A stretch of DNA of 64,000 nucleotides from Bolinopsis microptera (Eukaryota; Ctenophora; Tentaculata; Lobata; Bolinopsidae): NCBI RefSeq assembly GCF_026151205.1, contig NC_087072.1, forward strand, positions 4,049,375 through 4,113,374. The letters run 5' to 3'. The stretch's first letter is position 1; each line of letters opens with the position of its first letter. Of the stretch, positions 37,801-46,800 are shown in pieces. Below the pieces are notes generated by a model. That model did not search any database. It worked only from the letters and a program-made list of their open reading frames with translations, and was not told where the DNA came from. The position numbers and the translations under genes are program-made.

Positions 37801-40800
37801 CGGTGAAGCTAAAACGAAAGCGTTTCCAGATGATCAAAGCTAAAGCCTTATCAGGAGCAAACATTCGTCAAGGCACGTTGGATGATGATAAAAGGAACAT
37901 ACAAGAAGATATTCTGTGTTTGATGTACTTGAAAGGGTTCAAGAGAGGGGACGAATCTGCGGAGAGTGTCATTAAAGGGTAGGAACTATAGCATGAAATT
38001 ACTCTTTAAGTCTTTAGACCAGAAAGATACGCTAGTTTCAACTTATAGAGTCTAGTTACTGTTAGTCGTGCTCTGTTATAGTCGTGCTCTGTTATAATAG
38101 TCGTGCTCTATTTTAACATTATGAATATGCATCCGCCAGTCGCCACAGATTTCAATATTCATGACTTGTCTCCCATCTATATGGCACAAACTTACGCAAA
38201 TATGGTATTTTCTTAACTTAGATTTGAGCAGATAAAAGCTGTTCCAAATAAAATGACCACGTTCACATCAGATGGCAAGGAGCCGTCAGAAACGGAGACT
38301 ACAGATCCTCCACCCTACCCTCCAACTTGAAGGCAAAACTAGACCAGTTTGAGGGGGTAGACTTGAGGTACGGACAGACTCTGCCCCGGAACTACGGGGG
38401 AGCCAAGTCTCCGAGCAACCTGGATGGGAGTGAGGAGGATGAAGCTAGGAGAGGGGCTGAGATTGAGGAACTCAGGAACTTCAAGACCCCTGATCTGTCT
38501 AAGTTTGAGGACCAGGAGAAAGAGATTGAGGTAGGCTTGGAAGAGAAGAAATTTATAGTAAATTATATCTAAAAAGTTGCTGAAACTACGTATGAGAATT
38601 GAACAGTTTCAACTTTTAAGAAGCACACATTAATCAAGTTTTAATCCTAGACCAAAAGAGGAGACAAGGCAGAACGGAGGATTTCTTTTGGGTTTGGCTT
38701 GAGTGATATATTCGGATCAAAGGAAAAAGAGGAAAAGAGCGTCGTTAATGCGGAGAAGAAAGGTGGCATTTATACTGATGTTAATTGTTGAATCTTTCCT
38801 GCAGGCCACATTATATTGTGAGGTGCTACTAACAGAGCACCTCATTTCCTCAATATTCTGTAGTATTTCATGTTTGTAGTGAAGCGATCATTCTTTAGAA
38901 TAAGTTATAATGGTGCCGTGTATATTTCTATATATTTTATGCCCGATTATGTCTGTTTCAGATGAGCTGGTAAAAGCTAATGGTGATGAAGTAGAAGAAC
39001 CTCAAACTGGTAAGGGTCAAATATATAAAATCCATTTTCGTTTCTTCAATTTACGTAAAAACTGAAAAACCAGATCAATCACCAATTATAAAATGATTAT
39101 TTTTATTAGTCAATCGTGTTCCTGCCGCCTAACAGTCTGTATAATAAGAAGTTTCGTCCATATTGATAAGGTGAAGTATGAATAGGGCTGGCAGTTGGCA
39201 AAATGACTTGCGGTCAAATGAGTCCAGCTAATTTCGGACTACAGTTATAAAATATAATATGTCGATAAATATTTTGATATGGATTGAGTCGAATGAGAGT
39301 AATTATAATGAAACATGACCGCAGTTATTTACTTATTTACTAAGCTTATGATCAGCTGGAGCATGAAACCATCCTTTATATCCTAGTAAACTACTATATA
39401 ACCTTTAACTATACCCAACAACATAGTCCCACAATATCGAGATCTTTAGTCAATAAATCTAAACAAAGAAATATCGGACCTTTACTGATAGTTGAAATTC
39501 GACATATGACGTCATCTAGCGTCATCTAGCGTCATCTAGCGTGAAATATCGCCAGATGATGATAGATGACGCTAGATGACGCTAGATGACGCTAGATGAC
39601 GCCAATTAGCGACATTGTCGCTAAGTGCACGGCACCTTTCGAATGTCGCTATCTAGCGCCATCTAGCGCTATCTAGCGCTATCTAGCGCTATCTAGCGCT
39701 ATATGACGCTATATGACGCTAGATGACGCTAGATGACGCTAGATGACGCTAAGCACGCAGCACTGACGCCAGGCGACAGATAGCGCTATTTTCATCAAAA
39801 TTCTAGGGACGACATCTAGCGTCATCTAGCGTCATATGTTGCCGCGACATCTGACGCTATCTGACGCCATCTAGCGACATCTGACGACATCTGACGACAT
39901 CTGTCGCGACGACATCTGACGCAGGCGACATCAAGCGCTGGATAGCGGGATAAGTCAGTTTACGACAGTTCACGCTATCTAGCGCTATATAGCGCCAGAT
40001 AGCGCTATATAGCGTCAGATGTCGTTGCGACATATAGCGCTAGATAGCGAAGAATTTTGGGTCGTGACAGTCCAGGCTATTTAGCGCTAGATGTTGCTAT
40101 CTGGGTGGGTGTGTGTGTGTGTGTGTGTGTGTGTGTGTGTGTGTGTGTGTGTGTGTGTGTGTGTGTGTGTGTGTGTGTGTGTGTGTGTGTGTGTGTGTGT
40201 GTGTGTGTGTGTGTGTGTGTGTGTGTGTGTGTGTGTGTGTGTGTGTGTGTGTGTGTGTGTGTGTGTGTGTGTGTGTGTGTGTGTGTGTGTGTGTGTGTGT
40301 GTGTGTGTGTGTGTGTGTGTGTGTGTGTGTGTGTGTGTGTGTGTGTGTGTGTGTGTGTGTGTGTGTGTGTGTGTGTGTGTGTGTGTGTGTGTGTGTGTGT
40401 GTGTGTGTGTGTGTGTGTGTGTGTGTGTGTGTGTGTGTGTGTGTGTGTGTGTGTGTGTGTGTGTGTGTGTGTGTGTGTGTGTGTGTGTGTGTGTGTGTGT
40501 GTGTGTGTGTGTGTGTGTGTGTGTGTGTGTGTGTGTGTGTGTGTGTGTGTGTGTGTGTGTGTGTGTGTTTTACTGGGACCGTAAGCGCAGCCTGTCTTTT
40601 CCCACCCAATCTTTTTTGTTATTTTTATTTTATATGAAAATTAATTTTTACTGTGTATGAAAATTAATTATAATTTAAGTGAGAATGATATAACTATAAC
40701 TATAAGCTTGCGCGGCTCGTCGAAGTCACCCAACTATTACACTCGATTTATCAAATATTCGGCTGAGTGGAACAAAATATTAAATATCACTTAATCAAGG

Positions 40801-43800: not shown

Positions 43801-46800
43801 GAATTTTAAACTCTGGTAACCTTGATCTGAAGTCAAATAATAAACGTTTTGCAACGTTAAAAATAAAACCTATAACCAACGTTATATATATTTAACGTTT
43901 AACAACTATAGCCATAGCTATAGCTGTCGCCGCGATATCTAGCGCTAGATAGCGCTATCTAGCGCTATCTAGCGTTAACTGTCAAAAACCGATATTCTCC
44001 GCTAGATAGCGCTATCTAGCGCTATCTAGCGTTATCTAGCGGAGAATGTCGGTTTGTGACAGTTTACGCTAGATAGCGCTATCTAGCGCTAGCTGTCGCC
44101 GCGATATCTAGCGCTATCTAGCGCTATCTAGCGCTATCTAGCGTAAACTGTCACAAACCGACATTCTCCGCTAGATAGCGCCAGATAGCGCTAGATAGCG
44201 CTAGATAGCGCTGCGTCAGATGTCGTTGCGACATATAGCGTTAGATAGCGCTAGATACCGCTAGATGTCGCAAAAAAAAGGGCGGAAATTTTATGAAAAT
44301 AGCGCTATCTGTCGCCTGGCGTCAGTGCTGCGTGCTTAGCGTCATCTAGCGTCATCTAGCGTCATCTAGCGTCATATAGCGTCATATAGCGCTAGATAGC
44401 GCTAGATAGCGCTAGATAGCGCTAGATGGCGCTAGATAGCGACATTCGAAAGGTGCCGTGCACTTAGCGACAATGTCGCTAATTGGCGTCATCTAGCGTC
44501 ATCTAGCGTCATCTAGCGTCATCTATCATCATCTGGCGATATTTCACGCTAGATGACGCTAGATGACGCTAGATGACGTCATATGTCGAATTTCAACTAT
44601 CAGTAAAGGTCCGAAATATCAGTATATACGAAGCTTAATAATTTTATAATTTGATTTCATTAATAGACGCTTGCGTTCTAAAAGAATTGGCTTGCTGTTC
44701 TCTCAAACTATAAGGATCTGAATTGTGAGCTGTGTATAAAATGCAGTCCTTCTCAATGGCCAAGATTGGTCACGTTCGATTTATCTATCAACTGACTGTA
44801 CCTCGTGACGACCTACTCGGTGACCATGAGTACGTTCCTGACAAACTGGTGCTGTGCCAAAGCTCTTTTTTCATGCGTCGAGGGTCCTAAATTGTTTTTG
44901 GGTAGACGTGTAGTGCGCACTTTGCGCGGTAGCACGTGGCTAGCACCGGCAGATCCCGCAATGCGACACCTCCTGCAATGCGACACCTCCTGCAATGCGA
45001 CACCTCCTGCAATGCGACACCTCCAGCAATGCGACACCTCCTGCAATGCGACACCTCCTGCAATGCGACACCTCCCGCAATGCGACAAGCCCTCAGTCTG
45101 TAAACAACCAGATTGACAAACCATTAACTAATCACACCCAGCCGAGTACGTACTGACGATACCAGGTGAGCAGTTTAACCAGATGAGAGAAAGTGGGATC
45201 CTGGGGGACATGCTGGAGAACTACGTGATCACTGATGACGGGGAGTACAACGTGGTGTTGACCGGTGAACAGTACAGCCAGTTCCAGGCTCTCATAAATC
45301 AGGACACCAGGCTGGAGACTGTTAGTCAGGCTCAGGGTTAGTCACTAATTTAGTAAATTTAGTCACTAACGCGCTGACTTGTGTATTCACGTTATACGGA
45401 ACTAGATAAGAAAATAAATTAAGATTCGAATTAAGGTGGATTTTAAAAGTTTCAAGTTCAACTACAGTTTTTGTAATATTTTTGCCGGTTTCTAGACAAA
45501 ATTGATTGCTCAAATAAACTCATCAATGCATATGCTGACGAGTAAGACTGGAGGCATAAAAGTAGGCAGGAAAGTTACAATTAGGACTTTATACTATCCA
45601 GTAAAATTACAGAGCAATTAGATTATTATTATGTGATCATACTGTCCAACTATTACCAAGCAGCGGGAGTTAACCTTTAAGAAGATGGTCCTAAGATTGC
45701 AATATGAAGCAGAATAATAGTTAAGATTAAATTCCCCAGAATATAAAAACATAAATTATGTAGTTATGCCTATGGGAGTCCAGGCCGCCAGTAAGGCGCA
45801 GGCTTGTCTTCTTTCTCCGTTCTATTTCCATTTTCCTGTTATGTAATTAACTATCCTACTGCATACAACAAAAGATAAAATGGTAGCTGCAAGTTTGTAC
45901 CAAGCAAATTATCCAAGTTGGATATCTAAAGAGCGGTATCCCAAAGTTTTGAGCACATATAGTGCGAAGCAAACATTAAAGTCCTAACAGCCAGATTCGG
46001 AATAATTCAGGCCAAAAATTAAGATAAATCTACCTTTTAGTTGAACCTAATTGCCATATACTATAAGACCTTGACTTAACCTGTTCGTTTAGATGGTTAC
46101 TACATCGTCCTATTCACTCCGGCGCAATGGGATCAGATTCATCAGTATAAGGATATCACTGACCTGGATCTCACTTACGATCAGAGTGCAGATCACGATA
46201 AGTTCGTGGTGAAAATGTCAGAAAAGAAGTATGACAGATATCTTGAAATACAGACGACTATCAATGATATGGGTAGAACATTTAAGAACTTAGAATTAGA
46301 AATAAAATAGTGCAGTTGAAGATATTCCTGTCATATGATAACCGGATCCCGATCAAGTGTAATTTTCTATAGTAAATGAGCGGATTAGTTCTAAATATCC
46401 ATTGCTTTATTACAATCACTTTTGCAAAATTTGCAGCAGCTGTAAGTTGTTATGATTAAATTAAATGGTATTCATATTAATTCTCAACATGAGAACATAT
46501 TCGGGTACCTGTAAATCATAGCAAGTCTGGATAATGCTAGGTTATGATGAATCATGCATCTAAGCATCTAGTCCGACGTATTATTAAACCACGAAAATAT
46601 GTTAAACCTGACTAGGTTGACGGCAAATATTGCAGCTGAAGAGAAGACCAAGAAAAGGGATTCAAAGAAGAAAGTCAAAAAGAGCAAATCCAAGGATGGG
46701 GTAAGTTATTAAAGGAATACATCAATGCTAATATTCACAATGCACTCAACCTGATCAAGCTAAACTAGCATTTTCAGGATTCTTTCTGAAAACAATGAAC

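Follow-up and report, generated by a model that had tools for sequence, protein, structure and literature searches.

The origin of foldback elements and the reason for their short-unit arms are an old question. Drosophila FB elements have arms of short tandem units, are mostly non-autonomous and carry 9-bp target duplications. Among Mutator-like elements (MULEs), Muta1 of Aedes aegypti has arms that are 145 bp long and contain nine tandem repeats of 12 bp; it makes 8- or 9-bp duplications and has been called a foldback element (PMC5225508; this and the other papers are cited from excerpts). In the same report, 10 of the 12 long-arm MULE families of Aedes have 9- to 15-bp subterminal repeats, and hundreds of non-autonomous derivatives with variable interiors are described. 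Here, we analyzed a foldback element at positions 39476-44612 of a 64,000-nucleotide stretch (the window) of the ctenophore Bolinopsis microptera (assembly GCF_026151205.1, contig NC_087072.1, positions 4,049,375 to 4,113,374, forward strand), together with its relatives in the genome. The element is apparently gene-less and recently moved. The reading that we favor, to which we give about an even chance, is a non-autonomous foldback DNA transposon that was recently inserted by cut and paste and was moved most likely by a MULE transposase.

The family resembles Muta1 and the long-arm MULEs in its long arms of short units, its 8-bp duplications and its many non-autonomous copies with differing interiors (PMC5225508). 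Unlike Muta1, which has 12-bp units, spacers of 3-4 bp, mixed 8- and 9-bp duplications and a known transposase, it shows uninterrupted 10-bp units and 8-bp duplications alone. The Tm1 Mutator/Foldback elements of root-knot nematodes also have composite foldback-like arms that vary in length and members resembling miniature inverted-repeat transposable elements, but their duplications are of 8-10 bp and mostly 9 bp, some members carry a putative transposase, and they are thought to be inactive (PMC3169594). Galileo likewise has long internally repetitive arms and copies cut down to the arms, whereas its duplications are of 7 bp and its transposase is of the P type (PMC3573991). Tetris of Drosophila virilis is a non-autonomous foldback element with tandem repeats in its arms, 8- to 10-bp duplications and an unknown mobilizer; it differs in its TIR-220 units and its three structurally complete assembly copies (PMC4079207). 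Set against these descriptions, the family is new as far as seen, and of a known kind. A literature search combining ctenophores, transposable elements and foldback found no report of foldback elements in ctenophores.

The features of the element are as follows (window coordinates; strand where assigned).

39468..39475, left 8-bp target-site duplication GAAATATC
39476..39795, + strand, left outer arm, 320 bp, equal to the right arm exactly; GGACC end and 10-bp units
39796..40102, + strand, left inner arm, unit-based but diverged
40105..40568, + strand, (GT)n microsatellite
40569..41371, non-coding shared core, segment 1
41499..41828, non-coding shared core, segment 2
42203..42657, non-coding shared core, segment 3
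42658..43264, nested insertion (~607 bp) between CATCTTCT repeats
43265..43935, shared core, segment 4, with ~3 copies of a 158-bp tandem repeat (43446-43906)
43915..44292, - strand, right inner arm, unit-based but diverged
44293..44612, - strand, right outer arm, 320 bp
44613..44620, right 8-bp target-site duplication GAAATATC

The element is 5,137 bp long, and both of its strands begin GGACCTTTACTGATAGTTG. A sequence-only reading, made earlier by a model, had placed it at these coordinates with exact 8-bp GAAATATC flanks, and both were confirmed exactly. The 19-base perfect ends that it described are indeed perfect, but they understate the match, since the outer arms agree at 320 of 320 positions and looser unit-built inner arms extend to about 630-700 bp. 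It had also described the arms as almost entirely made of 10-bp units. The period is strong, with an autocorrelation of the 320-bp arm of 0.63, 0.57 and 0.52 at lags of 10, 20 and 30 (no lag from 5 to 30 exceeded 0.36 in 2,000 shuffles of the arm that kept its base composition), but by eye two parts are not units, namely the outermost ~25 bp and some 45 bp near 39603-39647. Each arm is a small foldback in itself, with unit runs in opposite orientation, and its single-stranded DNA is predicted to fold strongly (z = -14.4 versus 100 shuffles). The observed/expected CpG ratio is 1.57 in the arms versus 0.85 in the window. In view of this CpG richness, a possible link to the chromatin-loop motifs of ctenophores (PMC12221973) was considered.

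Along most of its length, the nested insertion at 42658-43264 had matches in just 4-11 of the 47 other elements. By eye, its right-end sequence recurs in locus L083, so the insertion is probably mobile in its own right. A 17-bp tandem array (TCCTGCAATGCGACACC, 44954-45087) adjoins the foldback element. The word GAAATATC also occurs once within each arm (39543 and 44538) and at four other places in the window; thus, the word alone is weak proof of insertion. The insertion is proven because other copies carry different duplications.

These copies were collected from the genome (264,652,675 bases, 232 contigs). The 19-bp end matched 173 forward and 183 reverse places, 356 in all, at up to 3 mismatches, compared with 30 + 26 = 56 for the reversed pattern used as a control. 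The end pattern is therefore beyond chance, though some tens of the 356 matches may be chance. A search for the ends had been proposed as the way to gather copies, and many were indeed found. A variant end, GGACCTTTAC(C/A)GAT(A/T)GTTG, accounts for 55 places within the 3-mismatch count, and ends of this or the variant form are present on all of C1-C13. No exact end with a non-canonical base 31 was found, and viral contigs gave no exact match to a 25-base end.

Copies range in length from 206 bp to 13.8 kb. The interior of the window copy is shared in part by 34 of 47 other elements, and 36 of 48 elements compared contained a GT stretch no shorter than 40 bp (range 78-684 bp, at variable positions). 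Two near-identical copies, on C9 and C5, mismatch the window copy at 6 of 3,340 and 9 of 3,253 aligned bases, respectively, with gaps omitted. The C9 copy carries its own duplication, CCTTGTGC; the C5 copy has none. Since these three near-identical copies, only 0.2-0.3% diverged, sit on different contigs, transposition was in all likelihood recent.

Target-site duplications were assessed at 54 loci. Most of these were taken from the list of exact ends or from the top arm matches, a sample that leans young. When a locus had several possible end pairs, the best pair was retained. An opposed pair was found in 50 loci and none in 4. Exact 8-bp duplications flanked 41 of the 50 two-ended loci, 40 of them distinct, and 2 more had one mismatch, which bears out the 8-bp duplication proposed from the window copy. 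In a set of 39 loci, an exact match was present in 32, the longest being 8 bp and never 9. Thus, as the sequence-only reading had proposed, the family differs in duplication length from Drosophila FB (9 bp). Long, internally repetitive inverted arms, together with duplications around many copies, place the family in the foldback structural class.

The same data bear on the reading that the locus is no transposon at all and is instead an artefact of palindromic or tandemly repeated sequence, or else a segmental duplication. The arms are repetitive and palindromic, and loci L042 and L043 share 12-base flanks, a pair that looks like a segmental duplication. However, 40 distinct exact duplications lie at unrelated sites, the ends are precise, and ends occur on all of C1-C13. 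The duplications refute this reading, to which we give next to no credence.

No transposase was visible in the window copy to the sequence-only reading, and this was borne out, as its 159-amino-acid (aa) open reading frame (ORF) had no match. Genome-wide, domain matches numbered 88 for MULE, 58 for Merlin and 150 for hAT, the latter being those scored of 365 candidates. The positions of 87, 58 and 148 of these, respectively (three on small contigs were omitted), were compared with 155 listed family ends: 100 of the 356, all exact, and all 55 of the variant form. Among these ends, no MULE, Merlin or hAT match lay inside a copy. The nearest was a MULE match 3.3 kb from the left end of a 538-bp family member in the window, beyond its right end. 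As a control, 4 MULE matches were found within 0.8 kb of the 16-bp unit GGACTGAATCACTACC (173 places genome-wide, 100 listed), of 52 on contigs with a listed unit, so the method is able to see a transposase near its repeats.

Twenty ORFs from fetched copies and their flanks, part of all ORFs listed in the copies, were also scanned, and no transposase was recognized. Their domains were of retroelements only (reverse transcriptase in two, an endonuclease and a sub-threshold GIY-YIG). The autonomous member that had been looked for was thus found neither among the scanned ORFs nor between the 155 listed ends. Three long members were rejected as autonomous copies: one of 8.4 kb, containing a reverse transcriptase ORF and the sub-threshold GIY-YIG ORF; one of 5.45 kb, with a reverse transcriptase ORF, which belongs to a larger foldback family; and one of 13.8 kb, in which, GT repeats aside, the sole ORF of 110 aa or more had no Pfam match. 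An 11.8-kb member also belongs to the larger foldback family.

The sequence-only reading had suggested mobilization by a hAT-type transposase. hAT elements make 8-bp duplications, and 150 hAT domain matches were scored in this genome. The hAT duplication consensus is nTnnnnAn. Across 41 distinct sites (the 40 above and that of the 538-bp element), only 3 duplications fit it, the GGACC end is unlike hAT ends, and the nearest of the 148 hAT matches compared lies 7.6 kb from one of the 155 listed family ends, on its outer side. Mobilization by hAT is therefore rejected on the duplication consensus and the match positions, and we regard it as highly improbable. At these 41 sites, G stands at position 1 in 18 and C at position 8 in 19 (binomial tail of 7e-5 for the C, with base frequencies assumed), and positions 2-7 are 78% A/T.

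A MULE is the first and most likely choice of mobilizer, with Merlin second. It is preferred because arms of this design, long and built from short tandem units, are on record in MULEs that make 8- to 9-bp duplications (PMC5225508); Tm1, too, is a Mutator foldback (PMC3169594). Duplications of 8-10 bp and long terminal inverted repeats, often with short tandem units, characterize MULEs; the family shows such repeats and duplications of 8 bp. A MULE family of the same genome has 16-bp tandem units that start with GGAC, and one of its unit-adjacent matches lies in the window.

59469-61289, MULE and FLYWCH domain ORFs (59798-60957, - strand) framed by GGACTGAATCACTACC units, beside C2H2 zinc-finger repeats

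No clear target duplication of this locus was found in the window. Under the MULE reading, a transposase made elsewhere would bind the arms of the foldback element, cut at the GGACC ends and join these to the target across a stagger of 8 bp, and gap filling would then produce the 8-bp duplication; the cut-and-paste mode is itself inferred. The 10-bp unit arrays may serve as repeated transposase-binding sites, and with a spacing of about one helical turn, these putative sites would face one side of the DNA.

Several results weigh against this assignment. None of the 87 MULE matches compared lies between paired family ends among the 155 listed, and an autonomous copy may hide among the about 200 of the 356 end matches that are unplaced. 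In yeast, 39 of 60 Muta1 insertions had duplications of 9 bp, and Muta1 showed little or no target preference (PMC5225508), whereas the present family has strict 8-bp duplications, none of 9 bp, and biased sites. The 5'-GG end, the 8-bp duplication and the arm length fit Merlin equally well. Finally, 7 of the 50 two-ended loci, the C5 near-twin among them, have no duplication. The sequence-only reading had taken copies without duplications as a ground for rejection, and such copies do occur, but four of them have a structural reason: those at C7:708669, C3:10321088 and C1:11497113 are buried in a larger foldback element, and L029 is a tandem dimer. L028, L057 and L072 lack an explanation.

That the same foldback family is moved by a Merlin (IS1595-like) transposase, and so would derive from Merlin, is possible but clearly less probable. 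Merlin elements are described with terminal 5'-GG, inverted repeats of 24-462 bp and 8- to 9-bp duplications, all of which are seen here, and ctenophores are reported among the carriers (PMC8101967). Several of the 58 Merlin matches are in open frames of 295-337 aa, and one checked ORF scored 49.6 bits to PF12762. On the other hand, the nearest Merlin match is 19.2 kb from a listed end, on the outer side. The sole Merlin locus read, 3 kb at C4:2020400-2023400, carries an intact 318-aa Merlin ORF (L082:1129-2082) but has no matching end and, in flanks of 1,128 and 919 bp, no clear inverted terminal repeat. Five genome matches, this ORF included, are equal in score and frame length, which suggests recent copies. 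Furthermore, a literature search for Merlin and foldback transposons, judged by titles and abstract starts, found no unit-built foldback Merlin.

Another enzyme with an 8-bp stagger, of the P superfamily, of Zisupton/KDZ or of an undescribed kind, is an unlikely mobilizer of the family. The field is wide, as no transposase is linked to the family ends, and the P superfamily includes Galileo, a foldback-like element whose long arms are internally repetitive; Galileo duplications, however, are of 7 bp rather than 8 bp (PMC3573991).

In the three buried copies (C7, C3 and C1), a longer arm, with an outer end that starts GGCAAGTTTCC, encloses the GGACC end at a depth of 675-678 bp. Exact 8-bp duplications (CTAGAATG and CTAGATCC) surround the outer ends of two of these composite copies, and in the third, one outer arm is broken. 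This outer end belongs to another numerous family, with 246 matches at up to 3 mismatches and none for the control. Loci L061-L066, L023-L024, L026 and L048 represent this larger foldback family, which has GGCAAGTTTCC at its ends, duplications of 8 bp and GGACC ends about 676 bp into its arms. Family 2b, with ends GGCAAGTTTCCATAAACGATATTTTA, was tried as a transposase source and rejected, as the 2.3-kb middle of one 6.4-kb copy contains no ORF longer than 77 aa.

Because intact-looking GGACC ends sit buried in both arms of the larger family, whose own ends are GGCAAG, we keep the rather doubtful reading that foldback arms grow and shrink by end switching, in which a single transposase could accept the GGACC and the GGCAAG ends alike. 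One lineage could then shed or gain outer arms, with the helical-turn unit arrays serving as a common docking platform. If this is true, foldbacks would represent a GG-ended, 8-bp transposon (MULE or Merlin) in a form that extends itself. One chromosome-scale genome contains 50 two-ended copies (41 of them with exact duplications), a size series from 206 bp to about 5 kb, a relative with nested ends, and candidate transposases of the MULE and Merlin types; thus, the mobilizer, the function of the units and the growth of the arms are directly testable in that single genome.

A search for end-to-end junctions (spacers of 0-9 bp, 13 exact bases on each side) gave two, both with a 5-bp spacer.

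L073:230-1560, tandem dimer
L029:3820-3967, tandem dimer

In L073, the outer duplication ATTGGATT ends in the five spacer bases, GGATT, and the second copy appears to have inserted with a duplication of 5 bp. In L029, the octamer CCATTTTG that precedes the first element on its left starts with the five spacer bases, CCATT; there, the far flank has been lost.

The window also contains the 538-bp family member mentioned above.

57008..57545, + strand, small GGACC...GGTCC relative, 538 bp, in a 10-bp tandem array, with flanks CACTTAGC

One of its ends is of the variant form, and the unit of the host array is TTAGCAACAC. Its two ends have in common the first six bases, GGACCT, alone, and the odd right end is rare in the genome (2 exact matches, 11 at up to 3 mismatches). 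Visual comparison shows a likeness between its interior and that of another foldback family (compare L083). Elsewhere in the window, units of the GACAATTGACCCCCC type, in both orientations, are densely arrayed at 16605-17281 and possibly form another repeat-built element.

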